A DNA stretch of 64,000 nt from Limnomonas spitsbergensis (lineage: Eukaryota > Chlorophyta > Chlorophyceae > Chlamydomonadales): NCBI GenBank assembly GCA_037349105.1, contig JAYJMM010000081.1, positions 1,798,001 to 1,862,000 on the forward strand. The letters are read 5' to 3'. Below the pieces are notes generated by a model. It was not told where the DNA came from. It saw only the letters and a list, made by a program, of their open reading frames with translations, and made no database searches. Shown here in pieces: positions 1 to 64,000 of this stretch. Both the position numbers and the translations under genes were made by a program. The number at the start of each line of letters is the position of its first letter. The first letter of the stretch is position 1.

Positions 1-312
1 GCTCAGAGTGGCAGGAGTTGTGCCAATGGTGCGCACCCTACACACCCTCAAAGATGCACTCTATAAACCCTACAAACCCTGTTTATTTTGGCAGCCTGCC
101 CGGGAGCCGCCAGGATGCATGCCTTGAGTTCTGCCGGATGATGCAGTCCCTGTTAGTGCTGTACAGCTGCTTAAACCGTAAACCCTGCTTTCCTCGCAGT
201 CTGCCTGGGCGGAGTGGCAGGAATTCTGCGAAAAGATGAAGCCGCTGTTGGTGCTGTACAGCTGCTTAACCCTAACCCTAACCCCTCAACTCAACGTCTC
301 TTTTCCTCGCAG
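1..312 (+). repeat. Decoy copies of the acceptor side of the exon at 313
   Basis: Bases 1-25, about 90-160 and 196-262 are imperfect copies of the exon start at 313 (SAWAEWQEFCQKMKPLLVL), each preceded by its own TCGCAG- or GGCAG-type acceptor and separated by spacers containing CCCTAA. The last upstream copy (199 onward) keeps the reading frame but differs at a few bases (C-E-K-M for C-Q-K-M) and then runs into CCCTAACCC. Confidence 0.8.
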
Positions 313-3199
313 TCTGCCTGGGCGGAGTGGCAGGAGTTCTGCCAGAAGATGAAGCCGCTGTTGGTGCTGGAGGGTGAGGTGGGCCGTGCCGACAGCTCGA
401 TGCAGCAGGAGGATGCCTCATCGTCGGCCAAGGATGGCGCGGGGGATAGCGGGTGGGCCACAGCACAGGCGCAGCCTGTGACCAAGGCCATGTCCAGGTA
501 AGCTGGTGTTGCAGTGGTTGTTGCTATTGCTGCAGCTGCTGTTGCTCTCGTTGCAGTGGTTGTTGTTGGTGTTGTTGCTGCTGCTGCTTTTGATGTAACC
601 ATTGCTGCTGCTCCTGCTGTTCTTGTTGCTCTGGTTCCAGCTTCTGTTGCTGTTGCTGCTGCTGCTGCTGCTGTTGCAGCTGTTGTAGCAGTCGGTCCTG
701 CTGCAGCTGCTGCTGATGTTGCAACTGTTGTTGCTGCTGCAGCTGCTGCTGATGTTGCAGCTGTTGTTGCTGCTATTGCTGCTGCTGCAACTACTGTTGC
801 CGTTGTTTTTGTTGCTGCTGCTGTTGTTGCAGCTGATGCTGTTGTTGCTGCTGCTGTTTTAGCGTAGCTAGTGGCCATGGCCCGGTCAGCTACTGTGCAT
901 GTTGCTGTTGCTGTTACAGCTGGACAGGCTGCTGTTGCTGCTTCTACATAGTAAACTGTTGTTAGTGTTGCTACAGCAGAGTAAAAGTCTTTGAAGGTAG
1001 GATCCTCCCACCTTCCACCACTCACCTCACACCTCTTCCGGCCCACCCCTCCCTCTTCTGGTCCACCCCTTCACTCTTCCGTCCCACCCCTCACTCTTCC
1101 GACCCACCCCTCACTCGCCAGGTGGCTGATCGCAGTCAGGAAGATAAGTGCGGCCAATGCACTGCTTAAGTCACTCGAGGCGAGGATGGAGCGTGCCAAC
1201 GCGGCGCTCCTGCGGACGTTCCAAGGCGACGGGTCTTCTGCCCTGTCAGAGCTGCGATCGTACCGAGTACCGCCCAAGATCACATTCCAAGTCCTGCAGG
1301 TAGGCAGTTTATCTTGCAGGGTTGTAAGTGTGACCTTGCAAGTCCATCAGATGGTCAGTCAAGTGTGGGCTTCCGGAAGCGTGGCCTGCCAGATCAGGAG
1401 TGGGCAGTGGCGGCGGCGCATGAGGCGTTAGGAGCCGCTGGGCAATATGGGGGAATCGAGTGCAGCTTGGCTGTTTTGCCATGATCGAATCACTCTGGGG
1501 TACCGGTACTAGGGGCTGGGATGTACAGCCTGGCTGCTTCTGTTTGCTGTCTTGTGTTCCTAGTTAAGGGTTTAGGGGCGGGGGAAAGGATGTAGAGCCT
1601 GGCTGTTTGTCGTCTTGTGCTTTTAGTTTAGGTTTTAGGGTTTAGGGGCAGGGATGTAGAGCATGGCTGCTTCTGTTTGCCGTCTTGTGCCCCCACCTCC
1701 AGATGTGGATTTTGGGTGTAAGTCCCATCCAGCGTCTTCTTCACACATCCCATCCCATGCTTCCCATCAGCTGCAAAATGTGTGGACCTGGGCATGAAAG
1801 GCCCAGGCTTTGGCTTTGTGGTTGAAAGGCATGCTTGTGTTGTTGTGGAATGCATGCATGCTGTATAAAAAATGATTGTGATAAAAATGCTCTTTATGGA
1901 ATCCTTGTCTGCTTCCTCGCTTATGAAGAGCATGCATGTTTCGTCTCAGGTGGCACTCCAGCTGTGCGGCTGCAGCGAAGACGACTGCCACAACTGGGGC
2001 CGCATGCGCACGCTCACGACGTACAAGGTCATCAAGAAGCTCATTGACGTTAAGCCAGCAAACTGCAGCAGCAAGCTGGTCAAGCTCTGCACAAAGGTGT
2101 GGAAAAGGCCTTGAAAAGGTTTTTTGGGGTAACGAACAAAGGTCGAGTATAAGCTTCTAATTTTTCCCGTGTTGCAGTAAGCTGGTCAAGCTCTGCACAA
2201 AGGTGCGTTGATGTTTCAGTGTTCAAAGGTGGGGAAAAGGCCTGGAAAAGGTTTTATTTTGGTTGGAAAAAGAGGTCGAACATAAGCTTCTACTTTTTAA
2301 CGTGTGGCAGCAAGCTGTTCAATAGGCTGGCTAAATGTTTTATTTTAGTGAGTGAAATACGTAAATATAAGCTTCCACTTATTCCCGTGTAGTAACAAGC
2401 TTGTCATGCTCCGCACAGAGGTGCTTCACAATTTCATGTTCATGAAAACTCCTGATTTTTTCTTTTCGATAAGCAGCAAGCTGCTGAAGCATTACATTTC
2501 GATATGCAAGCGTGAGGATCAGCCCAAACCCTGGACCCTCAACCTACTCAAACACAAAGGTGTTTCACGGTTTTCCAACAGGTTTGAAAGTGTTATTCAT
2601 TTAGGCATGAGAAATCTCTTTCTTGATCCAGGTTTGATCGATCAGTCAACTATTCAATTGACAGAGGTATATAATAACAGTTTTTCCTCACACCCATGCC
2701 CTGGCCTGCTCCCTCAGATCTACTTGCTTATTTAAACCTCTTCATGCCTGCTCCAACCTACTCATTAAATGTACCCCCCCCCCCTCATATCTGCTTCCAA
2801 GGATCAATATATTTCGTCATTCATTTTCACGCCTCCTCATACTTGCTTCCTAAGATCTGAATATTTCTTCATTCCTTTCCATGCCTCCTTTATACCTGCT
2901 TTATAAGATTTGTTTACTTCTTCATTCCTTTCCATGCCTCTTTCATGCCTGCCTCCTCAAATCTGCCTATTTTTGTTCACTACCCCAAACCTGGTTTCAT
3001 AAGAACTCCAATGACAAGGGGGGGGTCAGTGGAAATCTGTTACCACCCTCCCACATTCATGCATTCATACCTATGCACCCGTCTTCATACCTCTTCATAC
3101 CTGCTCCCTCAGATCTGCCGCTCCAATGACGAGGAGGAGGTCCGGCAGGAGTCCGTTGCCACCCTCACCCTATTCAAATGGATGGGCACTTTCGGGAAG
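313..3199 (+). CDS. Dynein heavy chain-like gene, internal exons only (partial)
   Basis: Four exons join in frame: 313-497, 1122-1299, 1950-2096 and 3113-3199. Each has an AG acceptor and a GT donor; the join at 497/1122 completes an Arg codon. The protein contains AWAEWQEFCQKM, then ELRSYRVPPKITFQVLQ, then a WGRMRTLTTYKVIKKL segment, and ends with VRQESVATLTLFKWMGTFGK. In dynein heavy chains the first stalk coiled coil ends in a similar [KR]SxxxPP...VxxAVxxLxG block, followed by a W...FL..L segment and then a VxxxSxAxxxLxxWxxxM block in the microtubule-binding domain. The order and spacing agree, which is why I favour dynein, but sequence similarity is loose. The exon between 2096 and 3113 that would complete the tip is uncertain (a CSSKLLKHYISICKRED stretch near 2473-2520 looks like a degenerate copy). 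No later dynein exon is visible before the next gene starts at 7227, so the gene is truncated, rearranged or misassembled. The start lies outside the window. Confidence 0.42.
505..870. repeat. GCT/GTT trinucleotide array in an intron
   Basis: Irregular (GCT/GTT)n microsatellite in the first intron of the dynein-like gene. It is stop-free in several frames on both strands (poly-Ala/Val on plus, poly-Gln on minus), which yields false open frames. Confidence 0.9.
2097..2430 (+). repeat. Tandem copies of the donor side of the exon ending at 2096
   Basis: The exon end AGCAAGCTGGTCAAGCTCTG with its AAAG|GTG donor recurs at about 2174-2204 and, more degenerate, near 2309-2335 and 2394-2424. The copies are separated by related spacers (GGTCGAGTATAAGCTTCTA and variants). 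Each unit is roughly 105-115 bp. Confidence 0.8.
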
Positions 3200-10200: not shown

Positions 10201-13200
10201 TAATGTGTGCGTTTTTCATCCTCCATGCAGAAATCCATGTCAGGGATCACGGTAAATGACCAGTCCATCAATGTCTTTAATCATATGAAGACCAAGTCAA
10301 GCGTAAGTTTGAAAGGGCTTGCCAACCCTCAACACAATGGGGCAATGGTTGGGGTGAAGGGACTAACTGTCTTCAATCATATGAAGACCAGGTCAAGTGT
10401 AAGTTTGGAAACCTAATTCAAAAAAAGGCGACGATAAATGCGACTGTTGATGTGTGGAACATTCCACCGAAACAGACAAAGGGCAGGGTGGGAGTCTGAA
10501 AGGGCTTGCCATCAACTTAATGGGGCAACGTTTGGGGAGAAGGGACTAAATGGAAGCCATAGTGGATTGCAAGTTGATCTTTATGACAGCTTTGCCTGCG
10601 CATCTATCGTTCGCCCCTCCGAAAGGGATGCGCTCAGCCAGCAGCATGAGCAGAAGAAGCAGGGGAGTGGCATTGGGCTGAGGAGGTGCTGCCACGATCT
10701 TGTGGTCATTAAACAAGGGCTTGCCATTTTTTTTGTACACCGAAGACAGGTGTGAGAGATTAATGGGTACACGTGGCAGGTACACATTGCATGCTCATTG
10801 CTCAACAGCATCCCCACCAAATGGGGATGCTGTTGAGCAATGGAAGCGATGCCGGCTGATGTAAGGCGTCCTTGCGGCAAGGGTTAAGGGTCTGCTTAAC
10901 CCTTTACCCTAAACGATGTCGGCTGATGGTAGGCGTTATAACGGAAACGTTTCCTTCAAACCTGCAGCTTCAGCCGGAACCTGACTACCTCTATCACTCC
11001 TAGGGCGGTCTGGTGTTTCTTGTTTTTGACTCAGCTACATATCAGCTACACGCCGGCTGCTGGCCGGAGGCTCCATATGTGGACAGCCTTGCTGCTTTGG
11101 CCACCACTCATCGGCCGGTCCAGGTTTGGTCCTAATTGGGCCTTTCGCGGCCGCTGGGCGGCCTGCCGAGGTTGGACGTGTGGCCGGTAAAAGGAACACT
11201 GGGTTGGTCGGTCCATGGATGCTGTTGAGAATGGAACGTGATGATGCTGAATGGGTAACCTGATAACGCATCAGGCCAGCAGCTGTAGACGTGAACCCAC
11301 TGCCCGTCTCCACATAAGCCATGCACGTAGCCTAGAGCATGAAACATGACTATGCTTGGTTGATGATCTGAGTATCTGACCATTTGTCAGCCCCGCTGCT
11401 TCAGCCGTGAACCCACTGCCCGTCTCCACCTGGGCCATGGACATAAGTTTTAGCATGGAACTAGAACTGGAACATGACTGCTTGATAGATGATCGTTGGA
11501 CCTTTTCTCAGCCCTGCAGCTCCAGTGGGGATCTCACCACCACCTCCCAATGCATCCCACAGACCAACCAGACCCCCCATGACCTCACTGCCCCTCTCTC
11601 CACCTGCTCTGATCGAACTGCCCCTCACCTGCCCCCCTGTCCTCACTGCCCCTCTCCCTGTACATGCCCCGCCCCCCTCTCCTCCTGCCCTGATCTAAGA
11701 CCTCTCTGTCTACATGTCCTGCCCCCCTAAGACCTGACCTGATCACCTGACTGCCCCTTTCAAACCTGCCCTGCCCCCAGACCTGCCCTGACCTGCCTCC
11801 CCCCCTCTTCCTACATGCTCTGCCCCCCTCAGACCTGCCCTGACCCGACTGCCCCCTTTTCTCACATGCCCTGCCCCTCACCTACCCCTCATGACCTGAC
11901 TGCACCTTTCAAACCTGATTGCCCCTTTCAAACCTGACCTGCCCCCATGAACCTGCTCTTACATGCCTCCCACCTCTCATTGGCTCATTGCCCAACGCAG
12001 TTCAAGTGGATCACCTACAAAATCGATGATGCAGGGCATGAGGTGCGCTGAGGCTTTTCATTTAGGGTTCAGCATTGACCGTTTAGGGTTCAGCGAGATG
12101 ATGCAGGGCATGAGGTGCGCTGGGGCTTTCTATTTAGGGTTCAGCGATGACCGTTTAGGGTTAAGCAAAATGATGGTGCCATGGCTGGACGAGAGTCATG
12201 TTTTCATGAAGTGCGCCAGGTTTTGTATTATAGGGTCTGGCGTTCCCTGTCTAGGGCTTGGCGAAATGATGGTGGATCACCTGCTAGATCGATCATGCGG
12301 GTCATGAGGTGTGTCAGGGATTTGTGTTTAGGTTTGGCGTTAACCGTTTGGGGCTTAGGGAAAGGATGGTGTGTTGTGACTTATGTGTTCGTGAGGTGTG
12401 GTTTGTAATGTATGGTCGGGCGTTGACTGTTTAAGGCTTTGAGAAATGATGGCTGGTCATGACACGTGTCTACACGAGGGGTGCCTGGGTATTTGAGGGG
12501 GGGGTACATGGTTTAGGGCTAGGCAAAGTTCCAGATATCGGGGCTGCGCCCTTAGGGTTCAGCGGCGTGATCACATGAGATACCAGATGGAACAAACAGG
12601 GTGCAGGTGTTCAGGGTTTAGGTACGTTGAAACAACCAGGGTTTAGGTGTGCAGGGTTTAGGTGTGCTGAAACAAACAGGGTTAAGGTGTTTGGGGTTCA
12701 GGTGAGCTTCAGCAAATAGGGTTGAGGTGTGGTGAAGCAAATAGGGTGGAGATGCTAAGGGTCAGGTGCGCTAAAACAAATAGGGTTGAGGTGCATGTGC
12801 TGAGGCAAGAACTGGTTCATTGCCGCTAATGCATGAAGCTGCCTGTCCTAGGTTGTGCCATGAAGCTGCCTAAACCCTAAAAAGGAAACCCTGCCTGTTG
12901 CAAGTTGTGCCTTGAAGCTGCTTTAACCCTGAACCCTTAACCCTGTCTGTTGCAGGTGGTGCCGGAGGCGGTTGGAGACAACGATTCGAGCTACGGCAAC
13001 TTCTTGTCAACGTTGCCTGACGTGCAATGTCGATATGGAGGTAGGGAAGCCCTTCACCCGAGTCCTTTCAAATAATTGCAAAGTCGATGTCAGCATGGAG
13101 ATGGACAAGTCTAGAACCCGAATCCTTTCAACTTGGTCCAGAGTGCATTGTTGATGTGGAGGTGAGCAAGTCCTTGACCCGAATCCTTTCAATTTTGTCC

Positions 13201-16200
13201 CAATTGCCATGTTGATATGGTGTTACGCAACCTACAGGTGCCTTTTTCTTAACCCTAAACTCCAAGCCACAGGTGCTTTTTCCAGCACATGCCAGACAAC
13301 TTTCGATTTGCTGTGGTGTCCACAAAATTTATATTTGTGTCAACAACATAATTTATAATGATCCCCCCTCCCTCCGCAGTGTTTGACTATGCATACTTGA
13401 ATGCCGACACGGGGCAAACGATCAACAAGCTGGTCTTTGTGAGCTGGTGAGCCATGGCCAACCGGGTGGCCGCCTGGAACGCTTGCCACAGTTTGGGGTT
13501 TAGGGTTTGACCTCCTGGAACGCTTGCCACGGTTTGGGGTTTGACCTCGTGGAACGCTAGCCACGGTTTGGGGTTTGACCTCCTGGAACGCTTGCCACGG
13601 TTTGGGGTTTGACCTCCTGGAACGCTTGCCACGGTTTAGGGTTTGGCCTCCTGGAACGCTTGCCTCGGTTTGGGGTTTAGGGTTTGGCCTCCTGGAACGC
13701 TTGCCACGGTTTGGGGTTTAGGGTTTGGCCTTTTGGAATGCTTGCCACGGTTTGGGGTTTGACCTCCTGGAACGCTTGCCACGGTTTGGGGTTAAGGATT
13801 TGGTCTTTTTGAACGTGTGCCACGGTTTAGGGTTTGGCCTCCTGGAACGCTTGCCTCGGTTTGGGGTTTAGGGTTTGGCCTCCTGGAACGCTTGCCACGG
13901 TTTGGGGCTTAGGGTTTGGCCTCCTGGAACGCTTGCCACGGTTTCGGGTTTGGCCTTTTGGAACGCTTGCCTCGGTTTGGGGTTTAGGGTTTGGCCTCCT
14001 GGAACGCTTGCCACGGTTTGGGGTTAAGGGTTTGGCATTTTTGAACGTTTGCCACGGTTTAGGGTTTGGCCTCCTGGAACGCTTGCCTCGGTTTGGGGTT
14101 TAGGGTTTGGCCTCCTGGAACGCTTGCCACGGTTTGGGGTTAAGGGTTTGGCAGTTTGGAACGTGTGCCACGGTTTAGGGTTTGGCCTCCTGGAACGCTT
14201 GCCTCGGTTTGGGGTTTAGGGTTTGGCCTCCTGGAACGCTTGCCACGGTTTGGGGTTTAGGGTTTGGCCTTTTGGAATGCTTGCCACGGTTTAGGGTTTG
14301 GCCTCCTGGAACGCTTGCCACGGTTTAGGGTTTGGCCTCCTGGAACGCTTGCCTCGGTTTGGGGTTTAGGGTTTGGCCTCCTGGAACGCTTGCCACGGTT
14401 TGGGGTTTAGGGTTTGGCCTTTTGGAACGCTTGCCACGGTTTGGGGTTAAGGATTTGGTCTTTTTGAACGTGTGCCACGGTTTAGGGTTTGGCCTCCTGG
14501 AACGCTTGCCTCGGTTTGGGGTTTAGGGTTTGGCCTCCTGGAACGCTTGCCACGGTTTGGGGCTTAGGGTTTGGCCTCCTGGAACGCTTGCCACGGTTTC
14601 GGGTTTGGCCTTTTGGAACGCTTGCCACGGTTTAGGGTTTGGCCTCCTGGAACGCTTGCCACGGTTTGGGGTTAAGGGTTTGGCATTTTTGAACGTGTGC
14701 CACGGTTTAGGGTTTGGCCTCCTGGAACGCTTGCCTCGGTTTGGGGTTTAGGGTTTGGCCTCCTGGAACGCTTGCCACGGTTTGGGGCTTAGGGTTTGGC
14801 CTCCTGGAACGCTTGCCACGGTTTCGGGTTTGGCCTTTTGGAACGCTTGCCACGGTTTAGGGTTTGGCCTCCTGGAACGCTTGCCACGGTTTGGGGTTAA
14901 GGGTTTGGCATTTTTGAACGTGTGCCACGGTTTAGGGTTTGGCCTCCTGGAACGCTTGCCACGGTTTAGGGTTTTGGGTTTGGCCTCCTGGAACGCTTGC
15001 CACGGTTTGGGGCTTAGGGTTCGGCCTTTTGGAACGTGTGCCACGGTTTGACGGAGCATGAGGGTAGCTAGGCAGGCTGGTGGGGAGCGGACTTTTTTTA
15101 GTCGTGATTTTTTAGTCAGCACTGGGTACGACTTACCGGAACAATTATTGATCTTGAGGTCCAACGCAGTCGCTCAGTACCGAACGTATCCTGAAAACGA
15201 GCTGAAAACAGAGGAACAGGATTTTTTGTACCAGGAAGGTGGCTAGACCAACCATGGTGGGCAGATATACCGAGTGTGGGAATCTGTGGGCAGCAAAAGG
15301 TGGATAGGCCACAGGAAATAAAAGTGTGGAAATGATCTCAAGCCTTGTGTGTCAAAAAAGTGTGTCTGGCCAAAAGAGTGTTGTGTGAGTGTCCAGAATC
15401 GTTTGTGTCTGACATGATGCTTGCATGGTCCAAGCCTTGTGTGTCCAAAAGAGTGTGCGTCTGGCCAGAAGAATGTGTGTGACCAGGAGAGTTTGTGTCT
15501 GACATACTGCTTGCATGGTCTGCAGGGCCCCCGATACATCCAGCATCCGCACCAAGATGATGTACGCATCGACCAAGGAGTTCTTCAAGGTGAGCGCTCG
15601 CTTGCTTGAAAATATCAATAATCCGGCGAGGAGAATTGGTCTGAGATCAGTTTAAAGCTCTGGTGCGCCTGTTTAGCCCCAAATGACATATGCCCTGATG
15701 AGCTTGAGCCCCTGACATGCTCTGTTGCAGGGCTTCCTGGATGGTGTGGGTGCGGAGCTGCAGGCTAGATATACATTGTTATATTAAACACGCTTGTCCT
15801 GATGAGCTTGAGCCCCTGATATGCTCTGTTGCAGGGCTTCCTGGATGGTGTGGGTGCGGAGCTGCAGGCTAGATATACATTGTTATATTAGACACGCTTG
15901 TCCTGATGACTTTGAGCCCCTGATATGCTCTGTTGCAGGGCTTCCTGGATGGTGTGGGTGCGGAGCTGCAGGCTAGATATACATTGTTATATTAAACACG
16001 CTTGTCCTGATGACTTTGAGCCCCTGATATGCTCTGTTGCAGGGCTTCCTGGATGGTGTGGGTGCGGAGCTGCAGGCTAGATATATATTGTTATATTAAA
16101 CACGCTTGTCCTGATGACTTTGAGCCCCTGATATGCTCTGTTGCAGGGCTTCCTGGATGGTGTGGGTGCGGAGCTGCAGGCTAGATATACATTGTTATAT

Positions 16201-16771
16201 TAAACACGCTTGTCCTGATGAGCTTGAGCCCCTGATATGCTCTGTTGCAGGGCTTCCTGGATGGTGTGGGTGCGGAGCTGCAGGCTAGATATACATTGTT
16301 ATATTAAACACGCTTGTCCTGATGACTTTGAGCCCCTGACATGCTCTGCTGCAGGGCTTCCTGGATGGTGTGGGTGCGGAGCTGCAGGCTAGATATATAT
16401 TGTTATATTAAACACGCTTGTCCTGATGACTTTGAGCCCCTGATATGCTCTGCTGCAGGGCTTCCTGGATGGTGTGGGTGCGGAGCTGCAGGCTAGATAT
16501 ATATTGTTATATTAAACACGCTTGTCCTGATGACTTTGAGCCCCTGATATGCTCTGTTGCAGGGCTTCCTGGATAGTGTGGGTGCGGAGCTGCAGGCTAG
16601 ATATACATTGTTATATTAAACACGCTTGTCCTGATGACTTTGAGCCCCTGACATGCTCTGCTGCAGGGATTCCTGGATGGTGTGGGTGCGGAGCTGCAAG
16701 CGAGTGAGGCGCACGAGCTGGAGGAAAGCGAAATGAAGGACCGGGTGCACCAAGCTCTAACACGCAAGTAA
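7227..16771 (+). CDS. ADF/cofilin with SHOCT-like, proline-rich N-terminal extension
   Basis: Actin-depolymerising factor, expected to bind and sever actin filaments in the cytoplasm. Eight exons, all GT-AG and all in phase: 7227-7359, 7527-7894, 10231-10302, 12001-12042, 12956-13040, 13380-13446, 15526-15589 and 16667-16771 (TAA), giving 936 nt or 311 aa. The last 144 residues are a full ADF domain: MSGITVNDQSINVFNHM (typical cofilin N-terminus), FKWITYKIDD, SYGNFLSTLPDVQCRYGVFD, KLVFVSWAPDTSSIRTKMMY, ASTKEFFKGFLDGVGAELQA, ending ALTRK. The N-terminal 167 residues are extra. Residues 1-70 hold two related helical-hairpin segments (AMDEGLIGQSDFDEIKKAFL and MDAGFLREQDYLQARDSFL) resembling SHOCT/short oligomerisation motifs. 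A Pro/Ala/Gln-rich linker with PPPPPP and PPPPSP follows. The start at 7227 is the first ATG of the joined frame; Met169 would be a normal cofilin start, so a short form is possible. The core identification is very secure; a role for the extension is inference. Confidence 0.93.
8335..9598. repeat. 65-bp tandem array in ADF intron 2
   Basis: About 19 copies of a 65-bp unit containing TGCTGCCATGCATGACTGCA, GGGGAGTGGGAAGGGTTATC and GGCCAGCTCATGATA. The first copies are the most divergent; those after about 8940 are nearly identical, suggesting recent expansion at the 3' side. Confidence 0.93.
9675..10090. repeat. 17-bp tandem array TAGTGCTCCATGTGCTG in ADF intron 2
   Basis: About 24 copies of a 17-bp unit. 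The unit length is not a multiple of three and the minus strand contains no stop, so all three minus frames are open for about 150-180 codons (HMEHYSTWSTTAHGALQ-type peptide). It lies inside an intron of the plus-strand ADF gene and is not a gene. Confidence 0.93.
10303..10560 (+). repeat. Partial copy of ADF exon 3 end plus donor in intron 3
   Basis: The exon end encoding VFNHMKTKSS with its GTAAGTTTG donor (10273-10311) recurs at 10371-10408 as TCTTCAATCATATGAAGACC plus GGTCAAGTGTAAGTTTG. The flanking GAAAGGGCTTGCCA...GAAGGGACTAA block occurs at 10311-10368 and again at 10498-10548. Confidence 0.85.
10796..10842. other. Perfect 21-bp inverted repeat (hairpin)
   Basis: Arms 10796-10816 and 10822-10842 are perfectly complementary (CATTGCTCAACAGCATCCCC and so on), separated by the 5-nt loop CCAAA. 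It lies in ADF intron 3, so the pre-mRNA would contain a very stable hairpin. Confidence 0.9.
11030..11185 (+). repeat. SINE-like dispersed repeat copy
   Basis: Contains CAGCTACATATCAGCTAC, GTGGACAGCCTTGCTGCTTT, GGCC...CGGCCGGTCCAGGTTTGGTC and a GGCCTTTCGCGGCCG block. Related copies occur at 29845-30010, 35655-35790, 40540-40665, 48880-48975, 51235-51350, 55385-55510 and more weakly 57380-57480. No coding capacity; class not determined. Confidence 0.65.
11500..11960. repeat. Pyrimidine-rich degenerate repeat (CTGCCC/ACCTG) in ADF intron 3
   Basis: Irregular repeats of CCTGCCCTGACCTG, CATGACCTGACTGCC and CCCCTTTCAAACCTG precede the acceptor of exon 4 at 12001. The composition resembles an expanded polypyrimidine tract. 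Confidence 0.6.
12034..12480 (+). repeat. Tandem copies of ADF exon 4 end plus donor in intron 4
   Basis: The exon 4 end and donor GATGCAGGGCATGAG|GTGCG at 12028-12047 is repeated at 12099-12121 (GATGATGCAGGGCATGAGGT) and, decayed, near 12165-12215, 12268-12313 and 12385-12400. Each copy is followed by TTTAGGGTTCAGCG-type spacers. The decay gradient runs away from the true splice site. Confidence 0.85.
12590..12800. repeat. About 30-40 bp repeats with AACAAACAGGGTT in ADF intron 4
   Basis: Degenerate tandem units of GCTGAAACAAACAGGGTT and AGGTGTGCAGGGTTTAGG, part of the intron fill upstream of exon 5. Confidence 0.7.
13018..13225 (+). repeat. Tandem copies of ADF exon 5 end plus donor in intron 5
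   Basis: The exon 5 end (GTGCAATGTCGATATGGAG|GTAG at 13022-13043) recurs as GCAAAGTCGATGTCAGCATG-GAG near 13078-13104, as GTGCATTGTTGATGTGGAGG near 13142-13161, and as CATGTTGATATGGTG near 13208. Copies are separated by ACCCGAATCCTTTCAA spacers; the unit is about 65 bp. Confidence 0.85.
13455..15052. repeat. Tandem array with TTTAGGG motif in ADF intron 6
   Basis: About 1.6 kb of 33-50 bp variants built from GGCCTCCTGGAACGCTTGCC, ACGGTTTGGGG and TTTAGGGTTT. A subset reads TTGGTCTTTTTGAACGTGTG, resembling the exon 6 end and donor CTGGTCTTTGTGAGCTG|GTG. A higher-order order of variants recurs around 13790-14110, 14450-14760 and 14690-15000. Confidence 0.92.
15340..15525 (+). repeat. Decoy copies of the exon 7 acceptor region
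   Basis: GTGTCTGACATGATGCTTGC-ATGGTCCAAG (about 15405-15433) is a copy of the true branch/acceptor region GTGTCTGACATACTGCTTGC-ATGGTCTGCAG at 15495-15525. GTGTGTCCAAAAGAGTGTG units are repeated between them. Confidence 0.7.
15668..16666 (+). repeat. Nine decoy copies of the ADF last-exon start and acceptor
   Basis: A 104-105 bp unit is repeated nine times before the true exon 8. Each unit has GAGCCCCTGATATGCTCTG, a TTGCAG or CTGCAG acceptor, the first 36 bases of exon 8 (GFLDGVGAELQA), then AGATATACATTGTTATATTA and an in-frame stop. The copies are nearly identical; one has GGATAG for GGATGG. Only the tenth copy (16667) continues into the rest of the ADF domain. Use of any decoy would give a protein ending ARYTLLY instead of the final helix. 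Confidence 0.95.
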
Positions 16772-16789
16772 ATGCGGAAATGGTTGAGA

Positions 16790-51677: not shown

Positions 51678-51704
51678 AGCACTCTTTCGTTCAGAAAATA
51701 AAAA

Positions 51705-54300: not shown

Positions 54301-54315
54301 GGGCAAGGTGTTTAG

Positions 54316-55130: not shown

Positions 55131-58100
55131 TCAAAGCTTACCCCCCGCAATGGCCTGCACCTTGACCTTGGCCCCCCCCTGAGCCCCAGAGGTCAGCAGC
55201 GCTTGCACGAGGGCCAGGTCCCTGGCGCCCTCCTCAGGGCTGGCTCGGATCTCCTCAACACTGCCCAGAACCGACGACAGGCCGCCCTGCCGGTGGGTCG
55301 AAACCTGCGGGCAACAGTCTTAACTTCAGGGCGCTCAAACGACAACATCGATCTCATGTGTGCGCCATCCTGAGTTTCTTTTTCCAGCTAGAAGGCCACC
55401 TTTGCCGGGCCGCCCCCCGGCCGCCCAGGGTCCGATTGGGACCAAGCCTGAGCGGGCTGGCGGCCCAAACAGCATGGCTGGCCACATGGGGATGCAGCTG
55501 ATTAGTACCCAAAGCACAGGATATTCACAGTAGATGACACTCATGACAGCCTTAAATGATGAAATCCCAGCTTGACTCACCAGCTTCAAGAAGGAAGCGA
55601 ACTCGACCGCGGTCCCCGTGAAAGGGTATTCCTTGACGTGGTGTGCAGCCTCGTCGTGGCTCTTCCATGTGAGCGTGTAGCTGCCGCGGCTGCCGGTCCA
55701 ACCGCCTCGAGTCACCTCGAGGGTCCCGTTTGTGCCTGTCGCCTTCAGGGACACGTCCAGCTGGGTAGCAGGCAGCGGTTGAGTGGGAGAGGGAGGGGTA
55801 CACTTTTAGGTGTGAAAGAAAAGAAAGAAATGAGTGGGGGAGGGAGGGGTATACTTTTAGGTGTGAAAGAAAGAAAACTACGCTCCGCAGGGGCGCAAGG
55901 TTTTGGGAAACAGTGCGGCATGGGCTGAGGCCGCGTCCCCGCCGATACCATTTCCAGCTGTGAACATGGATTGGAACCATGAGCTTTGAAACTCAGCAGG
56001 CGCTCATGCGAGCGGCCGCCAGGCGCCAGGTTGATGGGCAGCGACACAATCAGTAATTTGTGAGCACGCCAGGGTTACAGAGATCAACACGGGAGTCTCA
56101 CTGAGACTAAAGGGTGCAGGCTTTTAATCCGTGTAACCTGTTTTAATCCGTTTTAATCCGTTTTAATCCTGATGTTAAACTGTTCAACCAAACGAACACC
56201 ATAAGGTTTAAGGGCGAACCTAGAGCCCTGGAACCCGGCCAGCACTCACGTTTGATGCCGCCAGGGTGATGGATACCGTCGCGGGGACCTTGCTCAGCTC
56301 AAAGCCCACGACGCCCACGACCGAGTCGGGGTCTGACAGGTCCGGCTTCACGTGCGTTGTGCGCGCAGACACTTCACAGGCCTCGCCTAGGCCGCAAGCG
56401 CCGGCCAGCATCCGCAGCGCGGCCACAAAGTGCACGCTGGCTTCCATCATCATGCCACCAGGGCAATCCTCGGGACTGCGGCGCCAAGCGGTTCCGTAGT
56501 ACCTGCAACATGCAGCAGTTACAACAGCAGTTACAACAGCAGTTACAACAGCAGTTACAACAGCAGGTACAACAGCAATTACAACAGGTGCAAACTGTGT
56601 CACAAGCCTCCATCATCATGCCACCGGGGCAGTCCTGGGGGCTGCGGCGCCAAGCGGTGCCGTAATACCTGCCACGTGCAGCAATAACAACAACAGTAAG
56701 GACAAGGTGCACGCTGGCCTCTGAAGAGGAAATGCAGCCTCAGGCGTCACATGCAGTGATATAGTATCTGTCGCAGCGGGAGGACATGTCAAAGAAAGGA
56801 GAAAGGCAGTGTCGTAGTCATGCAAAGCAGCAGTGGGGCAGGATACAAATCAAGTAGAAAATGTGGCCTCTGGCGGCAGGCAGTGCAGCAGAACCTGCAA
56901 CATGCAGCAGTGGGGTGCGCCAAGCAAACAAGTACCGGGAAGGAGATATTCTTGTTGTTCAGGAGATGGTATGCTACTATGCTCGTAATCCAGACGATGG
57001 CAATCGCTCCTCCCTCTCATTCACTTGCTGCTTCAAGTGGACAGCCCTGCGCAAGCCCCCCTCACTCTCCCAGACGATGATATTCGCTCCGCCCTCTCAC
57101 TCACTTGTTGTTCTTATCCATGGCCAGGTTAGCAACGAGATCCAGCTTCACGACGTCGCCCAGCAGCGAGGGGGCGAGGCGGCAGGCCTCTTGGAACACA
57201 TCCTCGTAACGGTAGTTCTCTGCCAACCTGTGCAACAGCAAGAACGGTAATGATAACTGTTGTGATTTAGGGAGACATCTTCGCAACGGTAGTTCTCTGC
57301 CAGCTTGTGTAACGACAAGAGCGGTAATGATAACTGTGGGACCTTGGAAGACATCACAGCAGACCGCATACGACAGTCTACCTGGCGCCTTGGCGGCCAC
57401 CAATGGCCGATGGGGACCAAACCTACCGCTGGTAGCATAAGTATCAGGGCATGCTGCACCAGGCCCCCACGGCCTTAGGAGACGTTATGAAGCTTAAATG
57501 TGCCTGAAGTTTCAAAAACCTGCCTACTGGACGTCTGCTGCAGCAGGAAGCTCATCAAGACCCCAGAGGTGTGCATCATGCTCGGGACAAGGGGACGGAG
57601 AGGATAGGGATGGGATGGGGGACAGGGATGGGGAGGATGGTAGCACAGTCCCGCTACACCTGTGCTGCATCGTGCCGTATCATGATGTATCGTGCTACCT
57701 TGGTAGTACAATCCGGCGTTACCTGTGCCGTAGCGTGCCGTATCATGCCGTATCGTGCTACCATGATGAGGAGGATGGGGACCCATCATAAATAAATCAT
57801 ACATGCTTGCCAGCCAATGCTGCCACTGGTTCAATAGGACTCACATCCACAACGGCGGCGCAGGGCCAGAGGACGCCGCCCTCTGCTGCATGGCCCTGTA
57901 CTCCTTGATGGAGGCGACTGCCAGGTCACAGGTGCCAGCAACAGGCTTCTCTTCGATCACATGCTTCCCGGCTGTCAGGGCTTCGTTGACAACCTGCAAC
58001 CAGGGTTTAGGGTTAAGGGTAGACAACTTGCGGCCAGGGTTTAGGGTTAAGGGTAGACAACTTGCGGCCAGGGTTTAGGGTTAAGGGTAGACAACTTGCG

Positions 58101-59187
58101 GCCAGGGTTTAGGGTTTAGGGTTTATAACCTGCAACCAGGGTTTAAGGTTTACGGTAGACAACTTGCAGCCAGGGTTTAGGGTTCAGGGTTGACAACCTG
58201 CATCTAGGGTTTCATACTCGATGGTACCCTGCGTGGGAATTCCCGTGTGGGAGTGCAGTAGTGGGTTATCCCAGTGGGTGGTGACAATCCCCAATGGGTA
58301 ACCCCACGGCGGGTATGCCCATTGACTGCACCCCACGCACAGTTTCCCCGACGTTAGGGTAGACAACTTGCAGCCAGGGTCAAGGTTTTAGGGTTGACAA
58401 CTTGCAACCAGGGCAGTGGGGGAGCCAATCACTAGCGATCAGGCCCCCACGAGTTGCATGCACACTGTATACTATACATCATTTGTAAAGCCCTGCCGGT
58501 CAAGCCATGTGGTGCGGGCCTTCATGCCATGGACCACAACTGAACAAGCGAGCGATGAGCTCTTTAGCCCGAGGGACATCAGTTTATGCCGCGTGGCATA
58601 TTGCGTCCATGGCACGGAGAGTAAATGAACGATTATGCGCAAGCCCCTGGAAACGTCAGTTCATGCCACATGCCATGTGGCGTGCATGCCATGCATAAAA
58701 ATAAACGAAAAGCCTCGGCACATGCCGGTCAAATCAAACGGCACCTGCAAAGCGGCCTGAGGAGGGAGCACGACGATCACGAGTTCCACCTCGGGGTCGT
58801 GCAAGATGGTTGACAGGCCTTGTTCTCCATGCAGGACAGTCGCATTGCTCGGAAACCTGAGACGCAAACGATCAAACGGGTCGATATGATGAACATGGTC
58901 GATGGTAGCCTCCCGAATATGCGCCTTTAACATAAAAACATCCCAGCTGCTGACACCGATGCCAGTAATGTGATTTCAAATAAAAGGTGAACAGCCGAGA
59001 TCTGAGGAACCCAAACTTGCAACGATTATGGTTGCACCTACTTCTGGGCAAAGTCTTCTGCCGAATTCTGGCTTCTCGACCAGACGTTGTGCAAGGTCAC
59101 GGAGGTTGAGTTTTCTGTGATGAGCCGAGAATATACATCCTTCGAGAAGATACCCGTGCCAATCAGTGCTGCTTTAATAGTAGCCAT
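55131..59187 (-). CDS. Gfo/Idh/MocA family NAD(P)-dependent oxidoreductase
   Basis: Seven GT-AG exons on minus, all in phase: 59187-59042, 58856-58745, 57993-57845, 57227-57105, 56502-56250, 55760-55581, 55304-55131 (1,137 nt, 378 aa), close to the family's usual length. The start MATIKAALIGTGIFSKDVYS carries the Rossmann nucleotide-binding loop. VELVIVVLPPQ ends the third Rossmann strand region. EALTAGKHVIEEKPVA holds the family EKP motif with its conserved lysine. LAENYRYEDVFQEACRL starts the substrate domain. YYGTAWRRSPEDCPGGMMME, then ASVHFVAALRMLAG, matches the GGxxxDxGxH block, here with Glu for Asp and the His retained. Exact substrate (a sugar, inositol or related polyol) cannot be told. 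Residue 378 is followed by TGA; GGTAAGC just before it could be read as a donor, so a further exon is not excluded. Confidence 0.9.
55385..55510 (-). repeat. SINE-like dispersed repeat copy
   Basis: GGGCCGCCCCCCGGCCGCCC, CGATTGGGACCAAGCCTGAG, GGCTGGCGGCCCAAACAGCA. It sits in the last intron of the oxidoreductase. Confidence 0.65.
55785..55940 (+). repeat. Dispersed GGGGCG element plus a duplicated AGGGGTATACTTTTAGGTG block
   Basis: GAAAGAAAGAAAACTACGC, TCCGCAGGGGCGCAAGG, GGGAAACAGTGCGGC is the third copy of the element at 28245 and 31895, in opposite orientation. Directly before it, GGGAGGGGTA[CT]ACTTTTAGG-TGTGAAAG occurs twice. Confidence 0.7.
56455..56920 (-). repeat. Copies of oxidoreductase exon 5 start plus CAGCAGTTACAA array
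   Basis: The exon start (minus GTACTACGGAACCGCTTGGC) with the Pro-Gly-Gly coding block (56451-56512) is duplicated at 56609-56680 (plus CCATCATCATGCCACCGGGG, GCGGCGCCAAGCGGTGCC), and a decayed piece lies near 56866-56905. A 15-bp (CAGCAGTTACAACAG)n microsatellite fills 56510-56590. Confidence 0.87.
57205..57345 (-). repeat. Copy of oxidoreductase exon 4 start plus acceptor
   Basis: Plus CGTAACGGTAGTTCTCTGCC-AACCTGTGCAACAGCAAGA at 57205-57243 recurs at 57284-57322 as CGCAACGGTAGTTCTCTGCC-AGCTTGTGTAACGACAAGA. The following GGTAATGATAACTGT also repeats. Confidence 0.88.
57385..57480 (+). repeat. Weak SINE-like copy
   Basis: GGCGGCCACCAATGGCCGAT, GGGGACCAAACCTACCG; a partial match to the family. 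Confidence 0.4.
57639..57762. mobile_element. MITE-like element with GGTAGCAC termini
   Basis: Ends GGTAGCACAG and CGTGCTACC; internal GTGCCGTATCATGATGTATC, GTAGTACAATCCGGCGTTAC. Related to 40284-40395; each copy looks like two tandem half-elements. Confidence 0.68.
57990..58430 (-). repeat. About 37-bp TTTAGGG-containing copies of an acceptor region
   Basis: GACAACTTGCGGCCAGGGTT and TAGGGTTAAGGGTA repeat six or more times upstream of exon 3. The true acceptor is plus TTGACAACCTGCAACCAGGG at 57986-58005, so the unit carries the acceptor and the first exon bases. Confidence 0.87.
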
Positions 59188-60328: not shown

Positions 60329-63300
60329 TCATCTGCAGAATCCCATCCAGCAGTTTCCCCACAGCTCCACAAACTGGAACAACAGCTCGATGGCATCCGT
60401 CTTCATGGTGAAGCTCGCCATGCGCGTGTCCGTCTTGACCACCATCTCCACCAGGATGAGCGCGCCGGTGCCCGCGACCTGGCCATACATGTAGTACCTA
60501 TGTAGCAGGTGGCAGAGGTGCAACGTCATTGACCTATGTAACAGGGGTCTGGGTTCGGGACAGATCGAAACAAAGATCTACACAAAGATCTACACAAAGA
60601 TCCATTCTTTAACTAGGCACCCACGCGGTCGAGCCTTTTTGAGCAGGGCCCAGAGGTGTTACGTTCTTAACAAAGATCCACATAAGATTTGAACCAAGTT
60701 CCACCATTGGGACCCCTCTCTCTCTCACTTGAGCTGTGGCGGCTGCCCCCCACTGGCCATGGTCAGGATATACGCCTGAGCCATGTGGTCAGCAAAGTCC
60801 TTGTGTGCGTTGGCCGTAAGCGCCGCCAGCGTGGCCTCGGTCAGGCGCTCTTCGTACTGGTGTGCTGGCGGCAAGGAGCGCCACTGCTCCTGGAACTGGG
60901 CAGAGGCGACACGTGCCTGCACATAGGGACGTGGGCAGGGGGGGGAGAGGCAGAGGGTTTGAGCGAAGTGCGAGGCATAGTCTATGAGCCTGCATATAGA
61001 TGGCAAGTAGGGCTGGTCCATACCGTATATTCTGCCGATATATACACGTAAATATACGTGTATAAGCAGATAGACCATGTACGTACCGTACACGTATATG
61101 GGGACCTGAAAATCTTCAAAAGCCTTGAAACCTAGGGCGTTTAATGCCTTGACCTCCACCTATCACTTCATCAATTACAAAAGTGAATAAATTCATGTCG
61201 ACCTCAAATTCAGCTCAAATACCGTACTGCTACTTTCAATTGGGCGATCGATGCCGTTGGGGGTCCGTTTTGAGGCCTTTTAAAATATTCTGGGGGTTCG
61301 CTTTGGGGGTTCGCTAAAGCTTTCAATATATTCCGGTGATATGACTTTGGGGGTTGATTTTTTCCAGAATGAACAGCAATCAGGGGTATGGGCGTATCCT
61401 TTAGAGCTCATCTCATCTAGGAATTCAAAACACAACAATTCGATGCCCTCCATAGTGAAAAACCGTTTTAAGACGGAGTCGTCGAAGAGGGTTGGCGGTG
61501 AGGCACTGCAACGCCACACTCGGGTTGTAAATGTGTGGTGAACAGGTGATTCGAATTTGGGGTTCGCACGGACCCCTAATATCGATGGTGCTACTATTGG
61601 GGGTTGCTACCCCCAAAGTCGAACGCCCAATTGAAAGCAGCAGTACAGTACAACAACATATCAAGTATCAGGTTCGCGGCCAGCCGTCTGTGGTGATGGC
61701 ATAGCACTGTGCAGTCTTGAGGTCTGCTCGCACAGTGGCCAGCACTGATGCATGCCCTTTGTCCAGCAGCAAGCGGGTATGTGACTTTTCAGAGGGCAGG
61801 TGCAGGTGTGGACGGGGTCGCTTGGACCCCATGCGACCCCCCTTGCCATGTTACAGGATTTCAAAGAAAGAGTCAAAACTCTATCGCTGGCCAGGTCCGT
61901 GTTATTTAGGATGCGCATCGAATTGCGCGTGGAGAAGAACGGACGGACGGACGGACGGATACGTGGTGACTCTGGGGGCTTCGGCCCCAGCGACCTTCGG
62001 CCGCCCTGGGGGGCTCTGCCGAAAAGAGTAGAAACGGGAACGCAGATGCGGCGTGCATTACAGAGCAATTGCGCAAACCAAAGAGGGCACGCGCTTTCAA
62101 AATTTGCGTACATACGGTATGCCGTGTACCGGTAAACAATTATGCGTATATGGGACTCAAATATACACGTATATACGGCGTATACCGGTATACGTATATT
62201 TTATATACGCCACCCGTCAGCCCTAGTGGCAAGCTCAGCGGCAACCCCTTTTTAGTCGCTGCTTCTGCCGGACCAAACAAACGCCATTCGCTTCTCCCCC
62301 TCTCACCTTGGGGTTCAGACGCAGCTCGAGGGTCACCGCCTCGGCCTGCTGCTGCTGTTGCGGCTGTTGCTGCGGAGGCTGTTGGGCTCTGGACGCAGCC
62401 GAAGATCCACCTAGCAGATCCGATAGATCTAGGAGCCCGCCTCCAGGCGCCGCTGCCGCCGCTACCCCGTTCCCTGCAGTGCTGCCTGCCGGCGCCGAGC
62501 CCCAACCTTGGTGCTGCACCTGCGCGCCCCAACCCCCGCCTCCCCCGAATCCCCCGCCTGTAATCGCTGCCGGCGCCGCGCCTTCCCCGAGCAGGTCGCC
62601 CAGGTCCAACAGGCTGCCCCCAGCTCCTCCCCCACTGGACTGTCCCACGCCACGCCCCTGCTGCTGCTGAGCAGTGGCGCCGCTTGCGCCCGAGAGGTCC
62701 AGGTCTGAGAGGAGGTCCGCCTCAATTTTTTCGCCGTCGCCCAGCAGGTTGGTGGACTGGTCCACATCACCAAGCAGGTCAGGCACCTCGATGGGCGCTG
62801 CGGGGGGGCGATGGGGATGAGTGAGAGAAAGGGGGGTAGGAGGCGGAGGATGGGGAGTTGGGGGACGGGTAGGGGATCAGCGGGATGCCATGAGGGTACA
62901 TGAGATAATCTGTCATTAGGCGAGTGAGGCCCTGCATGGTCGAGATGCATGATCTTTTTTATTTTATGGCTGATGGCATGGGGGCGCGCAACATAGCTAT
63001 AACGGATATGTTAAGCGGGGAGAGCGGGAGGCAGGGACGGAGGGGCGGGGAGAGCGGGAGGCAGGGACGGAGGGGCGGGGAGAGCGGGAGGCAGGGACGG
63101 AGGGGCGGGGAGAGCGAGAGGCAGGGGCAGAGGGGCGGGGAGAGCTCGCGGGATAAGTGAGATGGGCGGGGGCGGGGAAAGAGCGAGATGTCAAGGATAG
63201 GAGGGAGGGTGGAGGAGCACGTGGGAAAGTAGGAAGGGCGGGCCGAGTGCTTCCAGCCCTCAGTCCTCACCCGCTAGGGTTCGAGCACCATTTTCTCCTC

Positions 63301-63875
63301 AGCAACGTGGCAGAGATAAAATGTTTCGTATCTTAGGCCGCAGGGTACAGGATGAAGTGCCCCTGTCACCACTCACCTTTTGATATAGGGTACAGGATAA
63401 AATGCCCCTGTCACCACTCACCCGCTACTATGACTGGCACCTCCTCCTCCTCAGCCACGTGGTAGGCCCGCTTCTCCACAAACGTGGACGAGGGGGCCTG
63501 GAACACCACACTGAGGCTGTTGAACTCCTGAAATTCACAAGGGGAAACAGCCAGGGGTTTATAGGTGCACCAAGTAGATCAGCTTGTCTTGTATGGTGTC
63601 CTTCACCGCATCCGTTATACCCTCACTGATGCTCTGGACCTCTTTAAAGCCCTTGAACCTGCCATGCCTTGCTGTATGCAGTTTCAGCCCCCCTGAACCT
63701 GTCTCACCCTGAAGATGGTGTCCTTCATGGCATCCATGACGCCTCCACTATATCCATGGACCTCCTAAACCCTCAACCCAGCTCACCCTGAAGATGGTGT
63801 CCTTTATGGCATCCGTCATGCCTTCGCTGAAGCTCTGCACCTCCAGCAGCGGCGGGTTGATGATGCGCTCGGCCT
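60329..63875 (-). CDS. Beta-adaptin-like protein (AP complex large subunit), C-terminal part
   Basis: Five minus exons join in frame: 63875-63787, 63527-63422, 62797-62307, 60916-60729, 60497-60329 (TGA). The gene continues past the window end. The first two exons give AERIINPPLLEVQ and FNSLSVVFQAPSSTFVEK, resembling the LLxx...LSSVYHKPPxxFV block before the beta-adaptin hinge. The 164-codon third exon is a hinge: PDLLGDVDQSTNLLGDGEKI, then LLDLGDLLGE and LLDLSDLLGG (clathrin-box-like), with Gly/Ser and Gln tracts. The last two exons resemble the beta appendage C-terminal subdomain: FQEQWRSLPPAHQYEERL, GALILVEMVVKTDTRMAS, FTMKTDAIELLFQFVEL. Beta-adaptins link clathrin to cargo on Golgi, endosome or plasma membranes. 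Which AP complex is uncertain; the appendage is divergent and its N-terminal subdomain is short or missing. Confidence 0.65.
60505..60670 (+). mobile_element. Two LINE 3' terminal fragments
   Basis: GCAGAGGTGCAACGTCATTG at 60509-60528, and CACGCGGTCGAGCCTTTTTG with AGCAGGGCCCAGAGGTGTTA at 60623-60662. Both lie in the last intron of the adaptin gene, one abutting the acceptor of the terminal exon. Confidence 0.7.
61003..62225. mobile_element. Outer element flanking the MITE, palindromic TATACG ends
   Basis: Left end AGTAGGGCTGGTCCATACCG with TATATACACG/CGTGTATA palindromes (61003-61100). The right end is the reverse: CGTATATTTTATATACGCC, then GTCAGCCCTAGTG (62190-62227). The two edges form an imperfect inverted repeat around about 1.2 kb in the adaptin intron, containing the smaller MITE and a (CGGA)n run at 61940-61962. 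Confidence 0.5.
61225..61645. mobile_element. 421-bp MITE with 22-bp terminal inverted repeats
   Basis: TIRs at 61225-61246 and 61624-61645 begin TACTGCT and end CAATTGGGCG, with one mismatch in 22. The inside contains GGGGGTTCGC / GGGGGTTGCT repeats and no transposase; a 79-codon minus frame has no known motif. It is flanked by GTA-like bases, so the target duplication may be TA or GTA. Confidence 0.85.
62995..63150. repeat. 30-bp array GGGGAGAGCGGGAGGCAGGGACGGAGGGGC-type
   Basis: Four to five copies of a 29-30 bp G-rich unit (GAGAGCGGGAGGCAGGGACG, GAGGGGCGGG) in the adaptin intron between exons 63527-63422 and 62797-62307. Confidence 0.92.
63325..63425 (-). repeat. Copies of adaptin exon 2 donor region
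   Basis: AGGGTACAGGATGAAGTGCC-CCTGTCACCACTCACC at about 63341-63377 recurs at 63387-63422, where CACTCAC is the real donor (minus GTGAGTG). Confidence 0.85.
63590..63790 (-). repeat. Copies of adaptin exon 1 end plus donor
   Basis: Plus CTCACCCTGAAGATGGTGTC-CTT[TC]ATGGCATCCGTCATGCC, which is the exon end and donor at 63781-63820, recurs at 63704-63745. A shorter copy (GGTGTCCTTCACCGCATCCG-TTATACC) lies at 63595-63622. Confidence 0.9.
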
Positions 63876-64000
63876 CTGCAACATTGTGCCGCAACAACCT
63901 GCAACAAATAGGACAGTGAAATCAACATAACGCCTAGCTGCCCTTAGAGCCGCAACATCCTGCATCACACAACTAGCTCAATCTTGCAACAGCTGTCTGG
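63876..64000 (-). repeat. Acceptor-region short repeats at window end
   Basis: GCAACATTGTGCC and GCAACAACCTGCAACA with CCGCAACATCCTGCAT and TTGCAACAGCT: TGCAAC-type copies of the acceptor at 63876-63885 inside the next adaptin intron. Confidence 0.6.

Follow-up and report, generated by a model that had tools for sequence, protein, structure and literature searches.

The window, by which we mean the whole 64,000-nucleotide stretch of Limnomonas spitsbergensis contig JAYJMM010000081.1 analysed here (positions 1,798,001 to 1,862,000), carries an ADF/cofilin gene, a protein kinase gene with long array-filled introns, a Gfo/Idh/MocA-like oxidoreductase gene and the 3' part of an adaptin gene, as well as a first gene with a donor at 2097 and an acceptor at 313. 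Copies of their own exon edges, complete with donor or acceptor, occur in introns of all of these genes, as listed below (window coordinates; offsets in bp).

91..256, + strand: exon-start copies with acceptor, source at 313, by local alignment (189-256, identity 0.96, score 62; 91-161, identity 0.68, score 26; 50 shuffles reached at most 13.5)
2174..2423, + strand: copies of the exon end with the donor at 2097 by local alignment (2174-2205, identity 0.97, score 30; 2388-2423, identity 0.81, score 22; 50 shuffles reached at most 15)
10237..16772, + strand: ADF/cofilin gene with six exons, ends placed by hand (10237-10302, 12001-12042, 12956-13040, 13380-13446, 15526-15589, 16667-16772)
10368..10410, + strand: copy in intron 1 of the cofilin exon-1 end with donor (43 nt, offset 96, identity 0.91, GT kept)
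12097..12126, + strand: copy of the cofilin exon-2 end with donor (offset 72, and 266 for another copy; identity 0.97 and 0.81; GT kept in both; TRF unit 72 bp)
13078..13215, + strand: copies of the cofilin exon-3 end with donor (offset 121, identity 0.75, GT kept; further copies by eye)
15694..16666, + strand: array of a 104-bp unit that spans the acceptor and runs 38 nt into cofilin exon 6 (9 copies, each retaining AG; TRF reports 9.7 copies with 97% match over 15694-16698, the true exon start included)
25552..38757, - strand: protein kinase gene, span of its modelled introns, from Pfam and the gene model
25560..26347, no strand assigned: intronic 61-bp array with a TTTAGGG-like motif, not junction-based (TRF 13 copies, 95% match)
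26350..26500, - strand: three copies of a kinase exon end with donor (offsets 81, 124 and 201; identity 0.77, 0.87 and 0.71; GT kept)
29592..29795, - strand: two copies of a kinase acceptor with exon start, true exon start 29525 (offsets 132 and 269; identity 0.97 and 0.81; AG kept)
31195..31412, - strand: two copies of a kinase exon end with donor, true donor 31507 (offsets 152 and 304; identity 0.87 and 0.90; GT kept)
35872..36168, - strand: copies of a kinase exon end with donor, true donor 36284 (offset 404, identity 0.73, GT changed to GC; nearer copies by eye only)
56251..58744, - strand: Gfo/Idh/MocA-like oxidoreductase gene, from Pfam and local alignment, with acceptor-side copies in three introns (57994-58744, offsets 136, 204 and 408; 57228-57844, offset 77; 56503-57104, offsets 166 and 392)
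62306..63898, - strand: adaptin gene, 3' part, from Pfam on the spliced protein, with donor copies in introns 63528-63786 (offsets 79 and 201) and 62798-63421 (offset 152)

The preliminary description held that exons remain intact and in phase in spite of the arrays, which agrees with the five genes that give a Pfam match on the spliced protein. The cofilin protein matches Cofilin_ADF at 114.1 bits and has its closest named relative in Gonium pectorale (61% identity); the kinase matches PK_Tyr_Ser-Thr at 126.6 bits and Pkinase at 114 bits; the oxidoreductase matches GFO_IDH_MocA_C3 at 27.0 bits, exactly at the curated cut-off; and the adaptin matches Adaptin_N at 184.6 bits over residues 12-366, the domain exons being in L004/L005 and the part in the window lying beyond the domain. 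The second piece of the gene on contig C4 gave no Pfam match, nor did single reading frames (one of 4-15003, three of 26001-29592), the latter null being likely a consequence of short exons.

Most gene models come from an HMM self-trained on the annotated sequence itself with window exons as seeds, one of which, cofilin exon 6, had entered the training out of frame; a low-GC block from contig C3 (L006, L007) was excluded from all training and counts. Of nine hand-made introns the HMM recovered six, missed three and contradicted none. Our set of 71 introns excludes introns longer than 3,500 bp and those beside weakly coding exons; the alignment test left out two of the 71 as too short and so covered 69 introns and 138 junctions. 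The 71 include at least two mis-modelled array units (69661-69752, 69819-69910), and two HMM-predicted extra adaptin exons (in L004) resemble acceptor-side array units; that a self-trained model read array units as exons is a warning for gene predictors. The 'homology-supported' set is our own definition, drawn from the five Pfam-matched genes: 26 introns, 23 at the window locus and three from a single contig-C4 gene. Some of its adaptin and Gfo/Idh introns lie outside the matched domain and were placed by reading the sequence.

Copies of exon edges in adjacent introns

Local alignment recovered an exon-edge copy inside the adjacent intron at all 15 places named in the preliminary description, two of them in the first gene, and its observation that the repeats include the exon edge plus donor or acceptor holds at each of them. 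The weakest of the 15 are 30850-30990 (24-bp unit, 8 exonic nt, score 18, equal to the threshold) and 35872-36168 (a single scoring copy, identity 0.73, score 18). Among modelled introns a copy with at least 8 exonic nt is present at 41 of 138 junctions and in 35 of 69 introns; the shuffled introns yielded 0 of 138 (under a rule slightly looser than that used for the homology-supported count), and one of 138 junction queries matched another intron. A junction-spanning copy is found in 22 of the 26 homology-supported introns, 10 of the 45 other HMM-predicted introns (many such predictions are doubtful) and 3 of 13 introns of two chaperonin genes elsewhere, on contigs C62 and C37, where one of 14 exon pairs was skipped for a profile gap and some of the chosen splice sites score weakly. 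The arrays had been described as running across all genes, which these counts make too wide, and given so strong a spread between loci the duplicating process may not be uniform.

In total, 43 donor and 49 acceptor copies have alignments that cross the splice site, and the median identity to their source is 0.85 (quartiles 0.75-0.92). They class as local tandem repeats (minisatellites), private to their locus and about half of them in direct head-to-tail order, in a window for which TRF returns 150 rows; of 42 junctions, 20 have their nearest copy contiguous with its source (spacer no longer than 5 nt) and 22 have it farther away. Exon and intron sides are joined in the copies as one piece, so the copies were made at the DNA level and not from spliced RNA. 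The 421-bp stretch 2000-2420, which contains copies, has itself as its sole match in the 260-Mb assembly (a search of this one stretch, with very common words skipped). Growth anchored at the exon was examined through the polarity of identity and dropped: the nearest copy is the more identical at 14 junctions and the farthest at 11 (p=0.69), so the earlier impression that copies nearest the true site are usually the best preserved finds no confirmation.

Junctions and random intronic points compared

Within the same 26 homology-supported introns, 26 of 52 junctions are copied and so are 714 of 1441 random intronic points (pseudo-junctions), a paired difference of 0.005 [-0.156, 0.158], an interval that permits 0.16 either way. 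Across all 71 introns the corresponding frequencies are 0.295 and 0.346 (difference -0.051 [-0.130, 0.037]), and for the 45 other predicted introns copying is rarer at junctions than at random points (0.143 vs 0.247; difference -0.104 [-0.197, -0.006]), as if some crossing copies had been lost, although wrong predictions may contribute to this deficit. Junction copies are therefore no commoner than copies of other intron pieces, the very result that the preliminary description had named as counting against junction-directed duplication, and the decoy edges are likely the product of a general process duplicating short stretches rather than of one aimed at splice sites. Slippage or template switching, proposed there as acting at exon edges, loses that aim; it may act as a general process.

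Copying frequency stays level through the junction and drops away over some 70 nt of exon: the fraction of windows copied is 0.35-0.37 on the donor junction, 0.38-0.41 over the initial 240 nt of the intron and 0.00-0.02 at 61-96 nt inside the exon. DNA outside modelled genes is copied at a similar rate (0.28; 247/818 in a separate count). Median offsets are 110 and 128 bp for junctions, 117 and 103 bp for random intronic points and 89 bp outside modelled genes (p=0.053), and the offset lies within 60-180 bp for 29 of 35 junctions and for 118 of 161 random intronic points. Copies reach at least 80 nt past the point in 3 of 32 junction cases vs 163 of 374 random points, both distributions being shaped by a first alignment step that spans only 60 nt. 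The raw count of within-exon copies (160 of 881 windows) seemed contrary to clipping at exons and was traced to three exons, one glutamine-rich, one a protein repeat and one a doubtful prediction, which hold 137 of them; elsewhere the count is 23 of 691.

We regard it as quite probable that the arrays reflect frequent, junction-blind local duplication of non-coding DNA, with boundary-crossing cases tolerated and clipped at exons by selection. In the DNA covered here non-coding pieces occur duplicated nearby, mostly 60-180 bp away, whether or not a gene boundary is touched, and decoy exon edges are likely those duplications that chanced to cross an exon boundary. Purifying selection would remove duplications within exons or reaching more than about 70 nt into them, leaving a sharp edge. 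The weakest step concerns the chemistry, which may be fill-in and end joining during repair of staggered breaks, further copies being gained afterwards through slippage or unequal exchange. Two-copy duplications numbered 23 in a strict ungapped search, set aside as too few and too indel-sensitive for breakpoints; a gapped search gave 47, ten of them usable for joints. At these ten adjacent duplications (identity at least 0.85) the joints are mixed, four with a short gap, two blunt and four sharing 4-12 bp. TTTAGGG/CCCTAAA is enriched in introns (108 vs 13.6 expected), which brought telomerase healing into consideration; the strands are balanced (53 and 55) and six contig ends examined lack such a repeat, so no mechanism was built on this enrichment.

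Splice signals, divergence and rival explanations

GT is kept in 33 of 43 donor copies and AG in 38 of 49 acceptor copies, and in motif score the best decoy does not fall significantly below the true site; judged from these motifs, splicing would indeed face many look-alike sites, as had been proposed. Splicing therefore likely relies on exon position, and the spliceosome probably picks the copy adjoining the exon body, as under exon definition, the decoys having retained usable motifs. A bolder version, which we put forward only tentatively and think rather less likely than its negation, is that at duplication-rich loci the motif is almost uninformative about the site used and exon position alone decides, half of the junctions facing equal-strength decoys about 120 bp off in their own intron, and that introns grow by junction duplication at next to no cost. 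Were decoys spliced at a low rate, they would continually supply new isoforms and introns.

Copies differ from their source at rates of 0.142, 0.110 and 0.261 at codon positions 1, 2 and 3 (95 of 99 copies, four being skipped because their frame was unsure), or 0.131, 0.111 and 0.232 with one copy per junction, the fairer figures since arrays give several copies. Adjacent intronic sites differ at 0.107, about the rate of positions 1 and 2 in the copies. The twofold excess at position 3 would follow from drift of the copies and from exon change restricted to silent sites: the copies diverge like neutral DNA and the true exon stays constrained.

These results bear on four other readings. A process at exon edges, whether slippage or template switching there or one coupled to splicing, might copy exon ends into introns; exon-edge copies do lie far above chance (41/138 vs 0/138 in shuffled introns), some arrays are wholly junction-based (15694-16698), and the small chaperonin set slightly favours junctions (paired means 0.18 vs 0.11, n=22; 4/26 junctions vs 73/649 random points, shuffled 0/130). 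We nonetheless consider such a process improbable, because the larger sets lack an excess over random intronic points, like duplication occurs outside modelled genes, and identity follows no steady gradient away from the exon. We are equally sceptical that selection maintains the copies as functional exon ends, alternative or mutually exclusive, for making several isoforms. Such ends would accord with the retained dinucleotides, with copy motif scores near the true ones and with an IsoSeq annotation of 29,987 transcripts from 11,428 genes (PMC11228838); yet coding constraint is not seen at positions 1 and 2 of the copies, dinucleotide retention (0.77 and 0.78) is about what the median identity of 0.85 predicts, and of 29 exons extended to a donor decoy, 24 would acquire a stop.

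A spread through introns of introner-like mobile elements bearing splice sites is highly unlikely: the intronic units are repeated and have splice-site-like ends, but the copies resemble the edges of their own intron only (one of 138 queries matched another intron), and the 421-bp stretch, the one searched across the assembly, has its single match there. Just as remote is an assembly artefact in which intronic stretches were multiplied through long-read errors. Assembling arrays is difficult, and a k-mer estimate of 233 Mb falls below the 260-Mb assembly (PMC11228838); against this, the copies differ from their source, the codon-position pattern is not expected from read errors, and the PacBio read L50 of 33 kb exceeds the array lengths (PMC11228838). 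The preliminary description had named absence of the arrays from long-read assemblies as evidence against itself, an outcome that did not occur, since this assembly was built mainly from PacBio long reads (PMC11228838). Junction-blind local duplication remains our preferred explanation.

Comparison with known systems

Boundary-crossing duplication has touched 22 of 26 introns in five genes, which suggests a route of intron lengthening by local duplication with the exon edge marked by selection, and provides natural pairs of true and decoy splice sites, alike in flanks and motif strength, as a direct test of exon definition that needs no designed constructs. Chlamydomonas reinhardtii and Volvox carteri are related green algae.

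In both of these species intronic tandem repeats are abundant and commoner near intron-exon junctions, according to a survey of them (PMC3887541). Abundant intronic tandem repeats near junctions are shared with L. spitsbergensis; the survey counts repeat motifs, whereas here we find exon-edge copies with splice sites and no near-junction excess. As outlined in PMC8355091, CST and Pol alpha-primase fill-in at staggered breaks followed by Ku-dependent joining gives small tandem duplications, sequence-independent like those in the alga and a plausible source of junction-blind copies; the overhangs given there are 43 and 50 bp, compared with offsets of mostly 60-180 bp in the alga.

The tandem-duplication model of intron gain likewise has duplication yield ready-made splice sites, but by duplicating exon-internal sequence and founding a new intron, whereas in the alga existing junctions are straddled. 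Closest is the potato RdRp gene, for which Ma, Lan and Niu 2016 (PMC4974935) describe a tandem duplication across an intron-exon boundary with splice signals inherited from the parental junction, as here. That case comprises one gene, one event and a new intron; in the alga about half of the junctions at some loci are involved, often with several copies, and the existing intron seemingly just becomes longer. What is in print for potato is one boundary-crossing duplication (PMC4974935); in L. spitsbergensis such duplication is pervasive at some loci.

Gene models and the copying of exon edges

Limnomonas spitsbergensis is an Arctic snow alga (Chlamydomonadales) whose assembly, reported as built in the main from PacBio reads, comprises 260,248,090 bp in 124 contigs at 54.15% GC, with a mean intron length of 788 bp in the merged annotation; the accessible text of the genome paper makes no mention of copied exon edges (PMC11228838). 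GC is 0.548 across 101 kb of contig C81, which holds the window at 1798001-1862000, and the closest named relative of the window cofilin is that of Gonium pectorale (61%). We modelled this 101 kb together with five 20-kb blocks from contigs C4, C7 and C9. The exons of the cofilin, adaptin and Gfo/Idh-like genes were placed manually; those of the remaining genes come from a small hidden Markov model trained on the sequence it annotates. The resulting set contains 71 introns, 26 of them with homology support from five genes; a sixth spliced piece had no domain match.

Domain matches of the spliced proteins
Adaptin: Adaptin_N, 184.6 bits
Sterol-sensing domain protein: sterol-sensing domain, 161.3 bits
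Kinase: protein kinase, 126.6 bits
Cofilin: Cofilin_ADF, 114.1 bits
Gfo/Idh-like protein: GFO_IDH_MocA_C3, 27.0 bits (at cut-off)

The pattern of copied exon edges is real and striking. At a score threshold above anything in shuffled introns (0/138), 41 of 138 junctions have their exon edge recopied at least once in their own intron, giving 99 copies (identity quartiles 0.75-0.92), and a copy was found at every place named in the preliminary description. The nearest copy lies a median of 124 bp away (middle half of cases 98-152 bp), either abutting its source (20/42) or separated by spacers or indels (22/42). The exonic part has a median length of 50 nt; since exon and intron sides both occur in the copies, copying takes place at the DNA level. 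In the adaptin gene (block L004, about 5538-5976, minus strand) three units lie about 158 bp apart, each containing an acceptor with 22 exon codons (66 nt), and in two of the three a donor-like GTGATG comes next; the gene finder calls them tandem in-frame exons.

Many array units contain TTTAGGG/CCCTAAA heptamers. Modelled introns hold 108 in 67.6 kb (13.6 expected, strands alike), and the 23.6 kb of exon on either side of them hold none (an exon shared by two introns enters this length twice). Examples of heptamer-bearing window introns, and one intergenic feature recognized by eye, are:

12025-12175, heptamer-bearing intron
13467-15050, heptamer-bearing intron
25560-26347, heptamer-bearing intron
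34920-35571, heptamer-bearing intron
57985-58212, heptamer-bearing intron
51705-54311, minus strand, putative LINE-type element with reverse-transcriptase-like frames

TTTAGGG was absent from the six contig ends examined: the starts of C4 and C81 are long GGCATC hexamer runs, and both ends of C9 carry a different satellite. A 20 kb stretch of C3 (300001-320000) has a GC of 0.363, versus 0.52-0.55 in other blocks, and its first 10 kb contains no ORF of at least 200 aa.

Junctions compared with random intronic points

The preliminary description had suggested a repeated process at exon edges (replication slippage, template switching or junction-directed duplication) acting across all genes. With copies sought only in the direction away from the exon, the copied fraction of windows across donor junctions was 0.35-0.37, versus 0.38-0.41 in the intron's first 240 nt; the corresponding acceptor-side values were 0.27-0.30 and 0.25-0.37. 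It was 0.55 and 0.56 (donor, acceptor side) more than 480 nt into the intron, 0.28 outside modelled genes, and 0.00-0.07 both 61-96 nt within exons and in shuffled introns. Spanning copies occurred at 35/116 real junctions versus 161/407 pseudo-junctions (arbitrary intronic positions given the same test), with similar offsets (p=0.053; <60 bp in 1/35 versus 17/161). In the 26 homology-supported introns the counts were 26/52 and 714/1441 (paired difference 0.005 [-0.156, 0.158]), and junctions were copied less than pseudo-junctions in the remaining 45 predictions (difference -0.104 [-0.197, -0.006]). Junction copies are thus no commoner than random intronic copies, the outcome that the preliminary description had itself named as its refutation, and therefore the splice junction is not a favoured duplication site, to within roughly 0.16.

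As an independent sample we picked a pair of chaperonin (Cpn60_TCP1) genes, located on C62 and C37, before viewing their sequence. Copying also occurs there, far more weakly and at a junction rate near the intron's own: spanning copies appear in 3/13 introns, so that "all genes" was too broad, and at 4/26 junctions, versus 73/649 pseudo-junctions (paired means 0.18 and 0.11, n=22) and 0/130 in shuffled controls.

Coding constraint and decoy splice sites

Exon edges and their copies differ by 0.142 at codon position 1, 0.110 at position 2 and 0.261 at position 3 (0.131, 0.111 and 0.232 with a single copy per junction) and by 0.107 on the intron side, matching the roughly twofold position-3 difference expected if copies drift and exons change at silent sites only. 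Beyond a junction, copied stretches continue for 45 nt in the median (at least 80 nt in 3/32), versus 60 nt beyond a random intronic point (at least 80 nt in 163/374). Within-exon copies are scarce (23/691 windows) when three repeat-rich or doubtful exons are excluded, and number 160/881 with them included. These data agree with a blind process trimmed by coding constraint.

GT is retained in 33/43 donor copies and AG in 38/49 acceptor copies, about the level expected from copy identity. By a coarse splice-site matrix, trained on the very set it scored, the best decoys do not differ significantly from true sites (donors 5.96 versus 6.05, acceptors 5.24 versus 5.90), and a decoy comes within 0.5 nats of the true site or better at 16/19 donor and 9/17 acceptor junctions. 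Using a donor decoy would introduce a stop codon in 24/29 cases. On the simplest reading of the sequence, splice choice may be made by position, favouring the copy closest to the exon body.

Likely origin and known parallels

The cause is probably less exotic than junction-directed duplication: dense local duplication blind to junctions, which shows at exon edges because selection sets its limit there. Breakpoints are few and mixed in type. Slippage is one known route to small tandem duplications; fill-in at staggered breaks followed by end joining is another (PMC8355091). The worth of the pattern lies in its natural decoy splice sites. A search limited to open-licence papers, as far as their text was accessible, found no study that describes copied splice junctions at the scale of a genome. 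Parallels are described: a tandem duplication crossing an intron-exon boundary in a potato gene (PMC4974935), tandem duplication as an established way in which introns are gained (PMC3443670), and intronic tandem repeats close to junctions in two green algae (PMC3887541).
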